Origin: Collinsella sp.
GTDB taxonomy: Bacteria; Actinomycetota; Coriobacteriia; Coriobacteriales; Coriobacteriaceae
Length of the DNA stretch: 59,607 nucleotides
NCBI GenBank assembly: GCA_029264355.1
Contig: JARIBW010000052.1
Location: 1 to 59,607 of the forward strand
Direction: 5' to 3'
Below the pieces are notes generated by a model that saw nothing but the letters and a program-made list of their open reading frames with translations, had not been told where the DNA came from and searched no databases. Shown here piece after piece: positions 44,108 through 49,778 of this stretch. The position numbers were made by a program, and so were the translations under genes. Numbering within the stretch: the stretch's first letter is position 1; every line of letters begins with the position of its first letter.

Positions 44108-44896
44108 CTACTGGCCGGTCACATAGCGCCACAGGATGGAATCGCCGTCGCCGAGCTTGTAGGCGCTGCACGCCACATTGGGCTGGCTCCCATTGACCGC
44201 ATACATCCAACCGCTCGACGGGCCATACTCCTTCTCGCTCAAGCCGTTGATGGAACTCACATACACCCCATAGACGCCGTCTTGCGACCCGATGCCGAGC
44301 CCCAGGGCGCATAGGGCGTCGTAGACCGTGGCACCCTCCTCGAAGGTGAACGTAGCGCTCGCCGAAACCGGACCGCCGACCGAGCTGGAATCGACCGAGA
44401 TGGAGACGGTGACGGTCTTGGGGGCGGGTTTTTGCGCATCGGCGGCCGACTTGTCGACCTGGCCTCCCCCGTCCCGCTGAGGAGAACCGCCTGCAGAATT
44501 TGAATTCGGGGCATTCGACCCGTCGGCGAAATCAGCGGAATCCCCGCTTGAGGAGTCAGATGGGCCACCGGTCGATCGGCCGTCCGAATCTTCGGGCGAA
44601 GCCTCGGCCACGGCGACATCGGAGGCATCCCCATCCGCATCGGATCCCATGTGGACGGCGGGGGCTCCGCCGTCCACGGCCATCGCATCGGGATTGAGGG
44701 CGAAGTACCCTGCAGAGCCCAGGACGAGTGCGAGCGAAACACCCGCAAGCGCGAGCTGGGCCCCCCTCCGACGACGATCGGAACGATCGACCATGCGCCC
44801 TTCGTCTGCCGGAGCGTTCGTCACGACGTCGCGACAGGACACCCCCGCGCCATCCGCAGGCGAATCCGACGGGGCGGGTCTCTTCTCGTCTGCCAT
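44108..44896 (-). CDS. Membrane-anchored DUF4430 (transcobalamin-like) protein
   Basis: The 262-residue protein has a cytosolic N-terminus (about 1-45), one transmembrane helix (about 46-67, GAQLALAGVSLALVLGSAGY) and a long Ser/Asp/Gly-rich extracellular linker (about 70-150). A C-terminal DUF4430 domain (about 155-262) follows. Its diagnostic parts are TVYDALCALGLGI, GVYVSSINGLSE, SSGWMYAVNG and LGDGDSILWRY. DUF4430 is related to the C-terminal domain of intrinsic factor and transcobalamin. The ATG follows AGGAGGTTTGAT, one base after the stop of the large upstream gene, so both belong to the riboswitch-controlled transcript. Confidence 0.85.
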   Translation of the reverse strand: MADEKRPAPSDSPADGAGVSCRDVVTNAPADEGRMVDRSDRRRRGAQLALAGVSLALVLGSAGYFALNPDAMAVDGGAPAVHMGSDADGDASDVAVAEASPEDSDGRSTGGPSDSSSGDSADFADGSNAPNSNSAGGSPQRDGGGQVDKSAADAQKPAPKTVTVSISVDSSSVGGPVSASATFTFEEGATVYDALCALGLGIGSQDGVYGVYVSSINGLSEKEYGPSSGWMYAVNGSQPNVACSAYKLGDGDSILWRYVTGQ

Positions 44897-44897
44897 A

Positions 44898-47800
44898 TCA
44901 AACCTCCTGGCGACGGCGCGTGAACGCCATCCACAAGCCCGACACCACAAGTCCGGTCACACCCACGGCGCCAGCCGCAAAGGCGATATGAACGGCCATC
45001 GACGGGTCTTGGGTCATATCGACCTGGGCATTCGCAGCGCTTTCAAATACGGCGGGGGCGTCCGCACCCTCGCTCCGCGCCGCACCGTCCTTCTTATCAG
45101 CCCTCCCGTTTGCGATGGGTCTGGCGCTCCCCGGTACGAAACCGGCCACTGGGGATTTCCCACCAGGCCTGGCGGGATCGACGCTGCCGAAAGTCGGGTT
45201 GTCGGATGCACCCGCGTTGGGACCGGATTGACCGCCACCGTCACCGCCGATCCCGTTACCTTGACCGACCCCGCTCGACGCGATCTTGAACAAGTGACCG
45301 GAGTCGTTGGTGTAATAGAGGTTGCCCTCCTCATCGCAGATGACCGACGCCATGCAGTACTCGATCTGCCCCGGACCGGGCTGGAACAGAAGAGATGCCT
45401 CTTCATCGCCCAGGCGGTAGACATACACGCTTCCGCCCCTTGTATATGTCGGGAAGCCTTCGACGCCGTTCACCGTGAAATACACGTAGGTCTCCGACCC
45501 CTGGACGGATACGAGGGGCGAACTTTTGATATCGTCGGGGATCTTCTCACCGTCTGCCCTCAGCACCTGCCGGACGCTCATGCTCTCAAGATCGACCACG
45601 GCCAGTACGCCGTTCTTGTCCCTCCAATTGCCCTTGAGTCCGCCGATAAAGGCATGGCCGCCGCTGATTGTGGGCGTCGAGGTCGACGTATCGGCAAACT
45701 TGGCCGAACCGAGCTCCTTCACACGGCCCTCTCCATCCACGCGCAGCTTATGCAACGTACCGTCTTGCCGCGACACCGCATAGACGAATCCACCGGACTG
45801 AACAAGCGTGGTGCGGATCGAGGCGCTTGCGATCTTGCAACTCGAAACCTCGTTCGCGAGGTCCGCCGTGAACACATGCACCGTTCCCTGATCGTCACCG
45901 ATAACGAAGTAATCGCCGACCACGACACCGCCGGCCCAGTAGTAACCGGACGCTTCCGTACGCACTTCACCGGCGGAGGCACCCGTGCGGATGTTGAAAC
46001 GACGCACCGAGCCGCCCACCGCCAGCTCCCCCTGCATGGAATCGAACGTCGACACGTAGACATAGCCATCGTGGACCGTGAGCGTGCACAGGGATTGCCC
46101 TGCAGAAAGCGCGGGAACGACCCAGAGTGTCTCCAGCTTCTTTGCGGAAACTGCCTGCAAGTACCCACCGGACAGCGGGATCACGATGATGCCGTCTGAG
46201 TACACGGGACGGCAGGTGCTATCCATGGTGGCGCCCAACGGGACCTCTCGCTCAACTTTGCCGGTCGCGCGATCGATAACCTGAAGGCGGGCAAGGCTGT
46301 GAATCGAGCTCCATGTGTTCGGATCCGTTGTGACCGCAGCCGTCACGATATATATCTTGCCGTCGATGATAAGCGGGTCGGAAGCGGTGAGCTTCCCTTT
46401 CGCCTTGATCTCATCGGGCGTAAGCAGGTTCTCGGCCCATGCGAGTTCGCCGTTGCCCGTCGGCGTCGGGGCATCGGTCACCGCACCCATCCCGCCGTTA
46501 ACGAAGCCGTCCCACTCAGAGTCGAGATGCGGGTGCTCGGCATCGGGCTTGACGGTCACGCCCCCCTGGGGCACCACGGTCGCGCCCTCGTCGAGATAGC
46601 GTAACTCGATGGTCATACCATCCCGAAGCGGGCAGGTCGTGGCGGCACCCTCGTCTCCTTGGCCGTAGGTTCCATTGATGAAGAACGCCCAATAGCGATA
46701 GGGCCAGTTGAAGTCGCTATCGAACGTGAGACCATCGGGCGAGGTGATGCTCGTAGGTCCGGCTTGGTTCAACTCATAGGTGTAGCCGGCCTTGCTCAAC
46801 AGGTCGGCGAACACGTCCCAGGCAGTGGTATCGTCTTCTGCGGGAAGCGTCACCTCGGTGAGCGGTATCCAATCGCGCTGCTCGCGCTTGCCGTCGTCCT
46901 TGGCCGCATCCAAACCGATCACGCGCGCATGCACCGTGAGCGTGCGACCGGGCTCGGGGTTCACGGCACCGATTGATCCCAGGACGGTGTACATCGCGCT
47001 GACAGGCTGATTGACGAGCTTCTGAAGCTTGCCGTTTTGCGGATGAGCCTTGGCAAGAGACTCGAACGCCTTGTAGGTGAGCGCCGAATCGATGCGGACT
47101 TGGGTGTTGTACGCAGGCTGCGTGACGAGCAGGTTCTCGTGCGTCACGACGGACGTGCGCGACGAGCGGAACACGCGCCACCGTGTCGTGCCCATGGAAT
47201 CGTAGCCGGGTAGGTCCACGGGCACGACGCCCGCGTCGTCGTCATCATTGGAGGTTCGCGCCCACGTGATGGAGCCATCCGGCGCGGGAGAGGCGCTCTG
47301 GAATGGGTCGAGGTTCTTCTCCACCCGATCGACCGAGGCATTATCGCCCAGCAGAGCCGCAGCGTAGCCGGCCTTCACCTGACCCATGAAGGCGACGGCG
47401 GCATCGATCTCGTCGTTCGTGACCACGGTAGGCGTGAAGGTGCCCAGATCGCGCTTGACGGTCACATCCCCATAGGTAAGAGAGGCGGTGATCGTCGCGG
47501 GACGGGGCTTCTCACCCTCGAGGCTGCGCGTCACAACGCCGCGATAGTCGTTGATGCGGATTGCCGCGGGGTCGCTGCTCTCGTAGGAGAGCTTGTACAC
47601 CTTGCCGTCGACGCCCAGGCTCCTCGGGTTCGGGAGCTTGAGGTCGCCCGAAACCGCCGCGGGATCCAGGGCGCCGCCCTCCATCAGGGAAACCTCGGCC
47701 TTGGCGAGCACGGCGGACAACTCGCGCTTGGTTTGCTCGGCCGTGGCGGCAGAACGGGGCTCGACCGTAAGGTGGTGCTCCACGCTCACCGCCTTGTCGG

Positions 47801-49565
47801 ACAGGTCCGGGGCACCGGCCATCTTGACCGTAGCGGTGAGCACCACATCGGCGGGCGCGACGGGATGCGTGAAGGAAACCGAAGCGACGTCATACGACGA
47901 GGTGACCTTGGCGATCTTGGTGTTGGATGAGGCCCAGTCGATGCGCGCGACGGGCTTTCCCGTCTTGGGGTCCGTGATTTTGACCGGCAGGTCGAGCTTC
48001 GCGGTGGCCTCGGGGACGGAGCCCTTGGTGAATTCGCTTGGGAGCTCGATATCGGCGGAGGCACGGGAGAGGTATTCCCCCACTCGCGCATCGTCCCAGG
48101 GAAGCATAGAGGTTCGCTTGGGTGTGAACGTGTCGGTCGCGTCGCCGCAGGTCAGACGGTACGTAGGATGGAAACGGCGCAGCAGCGTGTAATCGGTGCC
48201 GCCGGTACGCTCGGTGAGCGACAGGAAGAAGAACTCTATGTCACCGTTGGAGGCGCCATCCGAGGTATCAATCGAGCCACGCGCGGCAGGCTCGTACTTT
48301 TCCATGCCGGAGCCGATCACATGGCTCGCAACGCCTGTCACCCCCAACTTGGCCAGACGTGCCTCGATCATGGTGTTGAGGTTCGTGTCGGTACCGAACT
48401 CGGGCTCAGGCCGATAGCCGTTGAAACCATCGCCCTCGAGCGCCGCGATCGCGGCGGCGAGCTTGGCCTCGTTCTCAGCCGAACCCGCGGCGGCCACAGG
48501 CCCCACCACGTCGGACGTCACGGCATTGCGAGAGGTCGCCTCCACCTTGATATAACTGCCGGCAAGCGCGGCATCGAGCGTGAGCTCAGAGGCGGTCTCA
48601 TCGGCGATGGGGGCGAACTCGCCCGTGGCGCTCGGGCCCGCCAGCCAGCGGTACGTCACGCCGCCCGAGACCTCCTGCTCGTCGAAATATTCGTCCTGCT
48701 CGAATGCAGTGGCACGCAGAACGGCGCCGACCTTGGTCTTTCCGGAGACCTCGACACGGAGCAGATCGGTCTTGCCGTCGGTCACCTGAGTACTCGAACT
48801 CGACACCCATACCACGCCGCCGCCGGGGTTGACCACGCGCGCGGCGAGGCACTTGCCGGTGAGACTCGCAGGCACGGTGAAGAAGCGTTTGTTCGCGCCC
48901 TCGATGGGCGTGTAGCCCTTGGCCTTCCATTCGGCATCATCGGAAAGATTCGAGACCTTCTGCTCGCCCTCGTACCACTGGAAGGTCATTCCCTCGTAGT
49001 CGCGCTCGGTGAAATCATACTCGTCGCCCCACTCGGGGTCCATATACCTAGCGTCAACGCGCAGCTCCTGGCCCACGCCGATCTTGTTGAGACCAGAGCC
49101 GTTCTTGTCGTGGATGTAGATGCAATCGGCGTCGAGGCCCCCGCGCGCGGCATGGGCCTCCGCGTCCGATGCGGAATCTCCGGGCGCGGCGGGGGCAGCC
49201 GTGTGATCGACATCCTCGGCTACGACCTCGGGAGCATCGGCGGACTCGGTCACCGCGGCCGAGGGCTCGGTCGCCGGCGCAGCGGGCTCGGCGCCTTCGG
49301 CCGCATCTTCCGTTGATGCGGGGGCCTCCCCGCCGTCCTCCCCCGCAACGGGTGCCGTGGCAACATCCGTATGGGGTTCCTGCACATCGGGCGCAACCTC
49401 GGCGATCTGTGCCAGGGCGCCCTGCGCATCTTCAACGGCCTGCGCCCACGCGGGCACAGGAACGCCGCCCATCATCAAAGAAAGCGAAAGTGCCGCCACG
49501 AGCACCTGGCGGCACACGGGCACCTTATATCCGTCGCGTGGCTGACGGAAATTACGTCCGACCAT
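44898..49565 (-). CDS. Giant surface protein: DUF4430-like domain plus beta-propeller-like repeats
   Basis: The 1555-residue protein has a signal peptide (about 1-41, cleavage after AWA). An acidic, alanine-rich linker extends to about 130. Several Ig-like or bacterial-surface domains follow (about 135-890). A DUF4430-like domain lies at about 900-1000 (AWDVFADLLSKAGYTYELNQ, then RYWAFFINGTYG). A PQQ/WD-like propeller spans about 1040-1430 (repeats such as YVYVSTFDS, FVYAVSRQDGTLHKL, YVYFTVNGVEG, NLYYTNDSGHLFK). A Gly/Pro/Ala stalk and a C-terminal transmembrane helix with RRRQEV tail end the protein. No LPXTG motif is seen. Context with a cobalamin riboswitch suggests corrinoid capture at the surface. 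Confidence 0.8.
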   Translation of the reverse strand: MVGRNFRQPRDGYKVPVCRQVLVAALSLSLMMGGVPVPAWAQAVEDAQGALAQIAEVAPDVQEPHTDVATAPVAGEDGGEAPASTEDAAEGAEPAAPATEPSAAVTESADAPEVVAEDVDHTAAPAAPGDSASDAEAHAARGGLDADCIYIHDKNGSGLNKIGVGQELRVDARYMDPEWGDEYDFTERDYEGMTFQWYEGEQKVSNLSDDAEWKAKGYTPIEGANKRFFTVPASLTGKCLAARVVNPGGGVVWVSSSSTQVTDGKTDLLRVEVSGKTKVGAVLRATAFEQDEYFDEQEVSGGVTYRWLAGPSATGEFAPIADETASELTLDAALAGSYIKVEATSRNAVTSDVVGPVAAAGSAENEAKLAAAIAALEGDGFNGYRPEPEFGTDTNLNTMIEARLAKLGVTGVASHVIGSGMEKYEPAARGSIDTSDGASNGDIEFFFLSLTERTGGTDYTLLRRFHPTYRLTCGDATDTFTPKRTSMLPWDDARVGEYLSRASADIELPSEFTKGSVPEATAKLDLPVKITDPKTGKPVARIDWASSNTKIAKVTSSYDVASVSFTHPVAPADVVLTATVKMAGAPDLSDKAVSVEHHLTVEPRSAATAEQTKRELSAVLAKAEVSLMEGGALDPAAVSGDLKLPNPRSLGVDGKVYKLSYESSDPAAIRINDYRGVVTRSLEGEKPRPATITASLTYGDVTVKRDLGTFTPTVVTNDEIDAAVAFMGQVKAGYAAALLGDNASVDRVEKNLDPFQSASPAPDGSITWARTSNDDDDAGVVPVDLPGYDSMGTTRWRVFRSSRTSVVTHENLLVTQPAYNTQVRIDSALTYKAFESLAKAHPQNGKLQKLVNQPVSAMYTVLGSIGAVNPEPGRTLTVHARVIGLDAAKDDGKREQRDWIPLTEVTLPAEDDTTAWDVFADLLSKAGYTYELNQAGPTSITSPDGLTFDSDFNWPYRYWAFFINGTYGQGDEGAATTCPLRDGMTIELRYLDEGATVVPQGGVTVKPDAEHPHLDSEWDGFVNGGMGAVTDAPTPTGNGELAWAENLLTPDEIKAKGKLTASDPLIIDGKIYIVTAAVTTDPNTWSSIHSLARLQVIDRATGKVEREVPLGATMDSTCRPVYSDGIIVIPLSGGYLQAVSAKKLETLWVVPALSAGQSLCTLTVHDGYVYVSTFDSMQGELAVGGSVRRFNIRTGASAGEVRTEASGYYWAGGVVVGDYFVIGDDQGTVHVFTADLANEVSSCKIASASIRTTLVQSGGFVYAVSRQDGTLHKLRVDGEGRVKELGSAKFADTSTSTPTISGGHAFIGGLKGNWRDKNGVLAVVDLESMSVRQVLRADGEKIPDDIKSSPLVSVQGSETYVYFTVNGVEGFPTYTRGGSVYVYRLGDEEASLLFQPGPGQIEYCMASVICDEEGNLYYTNDSGHLFKIASSGVGQGNGIGGDGGGQSGPNAGASDNPTFGSVDPARPGGKSPVAGFVPGSARPIANGRADKKDGAARSEGADAPAVFESAANAQVDMTQDPSMAVHIAFAAGAVGVTGLVVSGLWMAFTRRRQEV

Positions 49566-49772
49566 ATCGGATCCCTTCCCCAGGGTCGGCGCCCCTCATT
49601 GAAGGGCACGCTCAGATGGGAGGCGATCCGACTTGTCGTCATCCGGCTGCTCGCGCCGTCCGATCTACGGCGTTCACGGCACAGCCGTCCGAGTTACGGT
49701 TACTGGTATAGCCGGGGACTTGCACCCCGATTCCCCTGGACGCCCAATGCGCCCGCGCGTCTCCGCGCCACC
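49566..49772 (-). promoter_or_regulatory. Cobalamin riboswitch
   Basis: The minus-strand leader of the giant surface gene contains the hallmark cobalamin motifs in the right order. GGGAATCGGGGTGCAAGTCC comes first (family: GGGAA...GGTGAAAATCC), then ACCAGTAACCGTAA (family: CCCGCAACTGTGA). AAGTCGGATCGCCTCCC (49618-49634) follows (family: AAGTCGGAAGACCTGCC). After it come a hairpin GCCCTTCAATGAGGGGC and GGGAAGGGA next to the ATG, so regulation is probably at translation initiation through ribosome-site occlusion. High cobalamin would repress the two DUF4430 genes. Confidence 0.85.
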
Positions 49773-49778
49773 ATCTCG

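Follow-up and report, generated by a model that had tools for sequence, protein, structure and literature searches.

An initial annotation of a 59,607-nucleotide contig from Collinsella sp. (hereafter the window) described a single 1555-residue protein combining Ig-like modules, a DUF4430-like domain and a beta-propeller, and noted that propeller lipoproteins in Bacteroidota and transcobalamin-like domains in animals bind cobalamin, raising the question of what such a protein does at the surface of a gut actinobacterium. The gene is encoded on the minus strand, where the frame from 49565 to 44898 runs through 1555 codons without an internal stop, shows a GC content by codon position resembling that of the neighbouring genes and is preceded by AAGGGA as the ribosome-binding site ahead of the start at 49565. 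On the plus strand, several stops interrupt this interval; since the coding composition and the homologues belong to the minus-strand frame, two plus-strand ORFs of 516 and 382 amino acids overlapping this GC-rich gene were rejected as antisense shadows. The window neighbours that we scanned (proA, proB, a nicotinate phosphoribosyltransferase and a radical SAM protein) revealed no link to B12. The source genome is a 1.56-Mb assembly, 97.6% complete. A match to the large protein was found in 49 of the 67 genomes of the family, and the genome-contig scan showed that Collinsella aerofaciens, listed as needing B12 for growth (PMC6593275), carries the large-gene system.

The domain order proposed by the initial annotation (signal peptide, Ig, DUF4430, propeller, stalk and C-terminal helix in one protein) was confirmed (Table 1). 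It had been called unusual, which is overstated, since one scan of genome contigs returned 190 relatives and the fusion of DUF4430 (SLBB) to a propeller was described in 2007 (PMC1796856). Residues 130-875 were modelled as several mostly beta domains (pLDDT 88.5) whose mutual orientation is uncertain (pTM 0.54), and include, besides the first Ig-like domain, a second Ig-type domain at residues ~607-715 with a fold match to a domain of the arabinanase AbnA in the AlphaFold model (Z 11.2), the same domain that Pfam recognises as aBig_2. At the other end of the protein, the hydrophobic C-terminal helix and its basic tail are kept in all 20 homologues inspected, and LPxTG is found neither in the large protein nor within the C-terminal 120 residues of the other 19. 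This agrees with the earlier proposal of anchoring in the absence of a sortase motif, and we infer that the helix serves as membrane anchor. In several homologues (L034, L039, L047), propeller and stalk are separated by a Listeria-Bacteroides repeat domain (Flg_new, PF09479), a repeat missing from the large protein of the window.

Table 1. Features of the two-gene operon and its leader, in coordinates of the window
Feature	Coordinates	Strand	Basis
AdoCbl-II cobalamin riboswitch aptamer (RF01689)	49678..49753	minus	38.7 bits vs gathering score 36.5
Predicted hairpin, candidate translational off-switch	49566..49632	minus	minimum-free-energy fold
Large gene, surface DUF4430-propeller protein, 1555 aa	44898..49565	minus	ORF scan and homologues
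Signal peptide, residues 1-41, AWA-QA site	49443..49565	minus	inferred from sequence and hydropathy
Ala/Glu/Asp/Pro-rich linker, residues 42-145	49131..49442	minus	composition
Ig-like domain, residues ~269-361	48483..48761	minus	fold match to the SCAB1 Ig domain in the AlphaFold model, Z 12.3
aBig_2 (PF20578, atrophied bacterial Ig), residues 631-706	47448..47675	minus	E 1.6e-6, 28.3 bits vs cut-off 27
DUF4430 / transcobalamin-like SLBB beta-grasp, residues 875-992	46590..46943	minus	profiles and AlphaFold model
PQQ/BamB-type beta-propeller, residues ~1013-1431, ~34 strands, closest folds eight-bladed	45273..46529	minus	profile and model
Gly/Ala/Pro-rich stalk, residues 1432-1522	45000..45272	minus	composition; pLDDT <50 at stalk start
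C-terminal membrane helix, residues 1523-1541, then short basic tail (RRR)	44943..44999	minus	hydropathy 1.99
Partner gene, 262 aa, N-terminal membrane anchor (residues 48-66), C-terminal DUF4430	44108..44896	minus	PF14478 E 2.3e-18, 66.8 bits
DUF4430 domain of the partner	44120..44335	minus	69.7 bits, E 4e-19

The DUF4430 domain had been placed at residues ~900-1000, nearly where relatives, profile comparison and model now locate it. Checked against PF14478, the protein itself stays below the Pfam cut-off of 23.8 bits (13.8 bits for the whole protein, 18.6 for the domain alone), but each of the 25 relatives aligned reaches E <= 0.01 (best 1.3e-12), and among full-length relatives E values go down to 6e-26, several scoring well over the cut-off and some possessing two copies. 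A profile-profile comparison with the clear DUF4430 domain of the partner gene product gave a probability of 98 (E 8.9e-14). By these sequence comparisons, the large protein carries a divergent DUF4430 copy. In the domain model, strands 14-24 and 33-47, helix 54-64 and strands 68-72, 75-80, 86-88, 96-102 and 124-131, all with high pLDDT, follow the order expected, as judged by element order alone, for a beta-grasp carrying a beta-hairpin insertion behind the helix. Profile searches against solved structures placed transcobalamin-2 and -1 closest to the DUF4430 domain of the large protein, and RUMGNA_00854 (3u7z) and transcobalamin-1 closest to that of the partner. The transcobalamin matches in the PDB being weak (E 0.08-0.14), the homology between DUF4430 and transcobalamin rests mainly on the published SLBB analysis (PMC1796856); the fold-search list for the whole head model was filled by the propeller and is uninformative on DUF4430.

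The propeller was also nearly correctly delimited by the initial annotation (~1040-1430). Its profile matches BamB (E 1.6e-16) as well as PQQ alcohol dehydrogenases, and its model superimposes best on YxaL (Z 40.8, rmsd 2.0 over 338 residues), followed by BamB (Z ~34), with the designs Cake8 and Tako8 also among the fold matches listed, all four being eight-bladed propellers. An AlphaFold model of the head comprising DUF4430 and propeller (residues 862-1452, 48 sequences) predicted both the propeller and the beta-grasp (pLDDT 91.5, pTM 0.90), this high pTM suggesting that the two domains are packed at a fixed mutual orientation. BtuG, the B12-binding propeller of Bacteroides, is absent among the profile and fold matches listed, whose best rows are eight-bladed; since BamB and PQQ propellers fill this listing, the absence is weak evidence. 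A viral fold library returned generic propellers only. One close fold match to the head, 9p3f, is the mycobacterial propeller Rv3035 solved with FecB, another actinobacterial propeller pairing with a binding lipoprotein.

The most direct indication of function lies upstream of the gene, where the aptamer of an AdoCbl-II cobalamin riboswitch is found on the same strand, 112 bases ahead of the start codon. The RF01689 match has an E value of 1.1e-5 over the whole window and 5.3e-8 on the leader alone, and is the sole one in the source genome; the broader Cobalamin model (RF00174) scores 30.7 bits at 49601-49776, just below its cut-off of 31.5. Across the family, 43 of 67 genomes (source genome included) have one AdoCbl-II match each; seven of these reach the gathering score, the remainder resting on E-value and position, and the match in the source genome ranks among the best-scoring. 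All 43 lie upstream of a DUF4430 gene: 37 directly precede, on the same strand, a homologue of the large gene, five precede a small DUF4430 gene followed, where the contig extends, by ECF transporter genes (G001, G002, G003, G046), and one (G008) stands ahead of a DUF4430 ORF that the contig end truncates. As the strict filters of Infernal miss weaker riboswitches, a 17-base core pattern was searched in addition. This core motif, GCTRTACCAGYAACCGT, added eight family genomes in which it lies upstream and which Infernal had missed. It also stands near the 5' end in 40 of the 77 complete homologues in named genomes and, as an exact match, in 83 of 156 fetched loci (some overlapping) against 0.001 expected by chance. 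Two clostridial relatives (L118, L122) have an RF00174 riboswitch (88.5 and 77.3 bits) just upstream of the same gene. Many loci of Slackia, Olsenella and Atopobium are without the core motif, and an Rfam search of four of these loci yielded nothing above the gathering score, so that regulation by the riboswitch cannot be called universal.

How the riboswitch could act is suggested by the predicted fold of the leader (-57.9 kcal/mol, z -2.69), in which the 3' core of the riboswitch, GUCGGAUCGCCUCCC, forms a hairpin with the stretch containing the ribosome-binding site and start region, GGGGAAGGGAUCCGAU. Both halves of the hairpin occur in the leaders of relatives, which together with the fold suggests that translation is repressed when cobamide is bound, a prediction drawn from a single fold.

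Two side observations concern riboswitches in the family. A classical Cobalamin riboswitch (46.8-48.2 bits) occurs in three genomes, and in both loci inspected (L143:1594-6117, L144:6421-10944) it precedes a 1507-aa protein for which FIVAR was the only Pfam match (one of the two was scanned), possibly a further B12-regulated surface protein. At G023:C3:573010-573787, the riboswitch is followed by an open frame of just 223 aa that has the DUF4430 portion and no propeller match.

The second gene of the operon begins 1 base past the stop codon of the large gene, and its homologue is the next gene in nearly all relatives. A second SLBB paralogue beside a secreted SLBB protein, as in the operon type defined in 2007, is thus present here; neither a CbiO-like ATPase nor a CbiQ-like protein was found in the operon within this window, and most Coriobacteriaceae likewise have no transporter behind the two genes. 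In Eggerthellaceae, Atopobiaceae and Clostridia, the operon continues to an EcfT-like protein, a duplicated EcfA and an S component; the order large gene, small DUF4430 gene, EcfT-like gene and duplicated EcfA gene was found in about 40 of 80 named loci, joined by an S component in those inspected for it, and other loci (L050, L071/L072) continue as a standard S-A-T set. Six of 14 EcfT-like members match CbiQ (best 2.3e-9), and the S components encoded by the operon in relatives match PF12822 and PF07155, families of the vitamin-carrier type. The source genome has four CbiQ matches genome-wide, and the L050 set has its closest counterpart there in an S-A-T cluster on contig C26 (29, 41 and 47% identity), which by sequence similarity is a candidate only for the ECF partner of the receptor. 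At two loci (L138:5850-8561, 903 aa; L141:3189-5546, 785 aa), downstream of an AdoCbl-II riboswitch and a small DUF4430 gene, two ABC_tran domains are followed by an ECF S-type domain in what is apparently one fused protein. The riboswitch and the ECF operons of relatives make the link to cobalamin far stronger than the initial annotation could know.

Taken together, the surface protein, the B12 riboswitch, the ECF operon of relatives and the transcobalamin-like domain make corrinoid capture the best-supported reading. We thus propose, with good confidence, that the two-gene riboswitch-controlled operon captures corrinoids (B12 or relatives) at the cell surface for hand-over to an ECF transporter. 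At low cellular cobamide, the riboswitch would leave the ribosome-binding site open and both proteins would be made, plentiful B12 presumably keeping the operon repressed. The 1555-residue protein would be exported and held by its C-terminal helix, with the Ig modules and the stalk carrying the DUF4430-propeller head through the cell wall. The corrinoid would be bound by the head, probably on or close to the DUF4430 face equivalent to the B12-binding face of transcobalamin, the propeller providing either a second wall of the site or a docking surface. The ligand would then pass to the small membrane-anchored DUF4430 protein and on to the ECF transporter, encoded in the same operon in many relatives and putatively elsewhere in the source genome, for example in the contig C26 cluster. 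An outer-membrane transporter such as BtuB is not expected in a Gram-positive lineage.

The identity of the ligand leaves some room for another reading. It could be cobinamide, another cobamide, cobalt or a cobalt complex, taken up in connection with cobamide status, instead of complete cobalamin: cobalt, too, is transported by ECF modules of the CbiQ/CbiO type (PF02361), and 3u7z was deposited as a putative metal-binding protein. In addition, the B12-dependent enzymes tested are absent from the source genome: we found no PF02310 B12-binding protein, no B12-dependent ribonucleotide reductase (the enzyme present is of class I according to NCBIfam), no QueG, no EutB and no PduO-type adenosyltransferase. 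We nevertheless regard this alternative as rather unlikely, as the S components adjacent in relatives belong to vitamin-carrier type families; uptake of a cobamide or cobinamide would, moreover, still be corrinoid scavenging.

The missing enzymes bear equally on whether the operon is a leftover in the source genome, an uptake system decaying or without catalytic use after the loss of B12-dependent enzymes. PF02310 is present in 61 of the 67 family genomes; five others share its absence with this small genome, four of these five match the large gene, and one of the PF02310-less genomes (G023) retains only the 223-aa ORF, matching residues 878-1028. Against decay, both genes are intact, with normal codon composition and one of the better-scoring riboswitches of the family, which argues for ongoing selection, and the apparent lack of enzymes concerns an incomplete assembly and the families named above, to which diol dehydratase and the CobA-type adenosyltransferase do not belong. 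We therefore consider a leftover improbable. Either the source genome has a B12-dependent enzyme of another family or within the missing 2-3%, or the receptor was kept after enzyme loss.

That the large protein is instead a surface adhesin or cell-wall scaffold, its Ig modules and propeller binding host or wall glycans and DUF4430 being structural only, seems very unlikely to us. Gram-positive surface adhesins typically possess Ig modules and a long flexible stalk, and Burroughs et al. raised the possibility of accessory domains tethering to polysaccharides of the wall (PMC1796856), but an adhesin is not expected to share an operon with a B12 riboswitch and ECF genes, and the riboswitch also occurs on short DUF4430-ECF operons without propeller and Ig modules. 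A quinoprotein enzyme or BamB-like assembly factor, as the BamB and PQQ alcohol dehydrogenase hits of the propeller profile might indicate, is scarcely credible and the enzyme was set aside, because the best fold match, YxaL, is no dehydrogenase, the riboswitch and ECF context does not fit, and BamB acts in outer-membrane assembly, this lineage being Gram-positive.

Within the corrinoid-capture reading, a more specific and tentative idea, which we hold to be possible without favouring it, is that DUF4430 together with the eight-bladed propeller makes up a single rigid, composite corrinoid site, in which the propeller replaces the alpha/alpha toroid of the animal carriers, making the protein an ECF-linked counterpart of BtuG in Gram-positive gut Actinobacteria and Clostridia. 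Should the head bind B12 tightly, it would act as a Gram-positive competitor for B12 in the gut, where Gram-positive extracellular capture is poorly known compared with the BtuG/BtuB system of Bacteroides; the beta-grasp domain in common with human B12 carriers would then represent a shared inheritance with a different partner domain.

Several known systems can be compared with this operon. Burroughs et al. (2007) named the SLBB domain, reported its fusions to Ig and beta-propeller domains (Clostridium), described this clade as transcobalamin-like, noted a paralogous second SLBB protein and CbiO/CbiQ neighbours, the latter as general but not universal in such operons, and predicted B12 scavenging (PMC1796856). 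The large protein is a further case of that architecture, sharing the DUF4430/SLBB domain, the Ig and propeller fusion and the paralogous partner. It differs from the 2007 description in its Coriobacteriia host, in the cobalamin riboswitch ahead of the operon (the word "riboswitch" is absent from PMC1796856), in ECF genes that are mostly non-adjacent in Coriobacteriaceae and in a C-terminal helix without LPxTG. No experimental study of a DUF4430-propeller protein turned up in our search of the open-access literature. The riboswitch and the Coriobacteriia-wide survey add to the earlier prediction, and the occurrence of the former across Coriobacteriaceae, with the full ECF operon of relatives, turns it into a specific system testable in Collinsella, Eggerthella, Slackia and other common gut bacteria.

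The operon resembles ECF-CbrT of Lactobacillus in ECF-type B12 import by a Gram-positive bacterium (PMC5997447); ECF-CbrT is described there without an extracellular SLBB-propeller receptor, and the S components found here are only putatively comparable to CbrT. YxaL (Bacillus velezensis) and BamB share the PQQ-type propeller fold but are without DUF4430, and neither is known to have a link to B12. The beta domain of transcobalamin, haptocorrin and intrinsic factor belongs to the same SLBB clade (PMC1796856), transcobalamin-1 and -2 being the nearest, weakly, by profile; it is joined to an alpha/alpha toroid in animals and to a beta-propeller here. In Bacteroides, BtuG is a surface lipoprotein with a seven-bladed propeller, encoded in riboswitch-regulated loci, that has femtomolar affinity for B12 and works with the outer-membrane BtuB (PMC6143338). 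The large protein is likewise a surface-exposed propeller from a B12-riboswitch-regulated locus, which for BtuG is a B12 transport locus, but its propeller matches the eight-bladed YxaL and BamB, carries DUF4430 and would serve an ECF transporter. The convergent design proposed by the initial annotation may thus hold for one half of the protein: a B12 role shared by the eight-bladed propeller and the seven-bladed BtuG would be convergent, whereas DUF4430 belongs to the same SLBB clade as transcobalamin.
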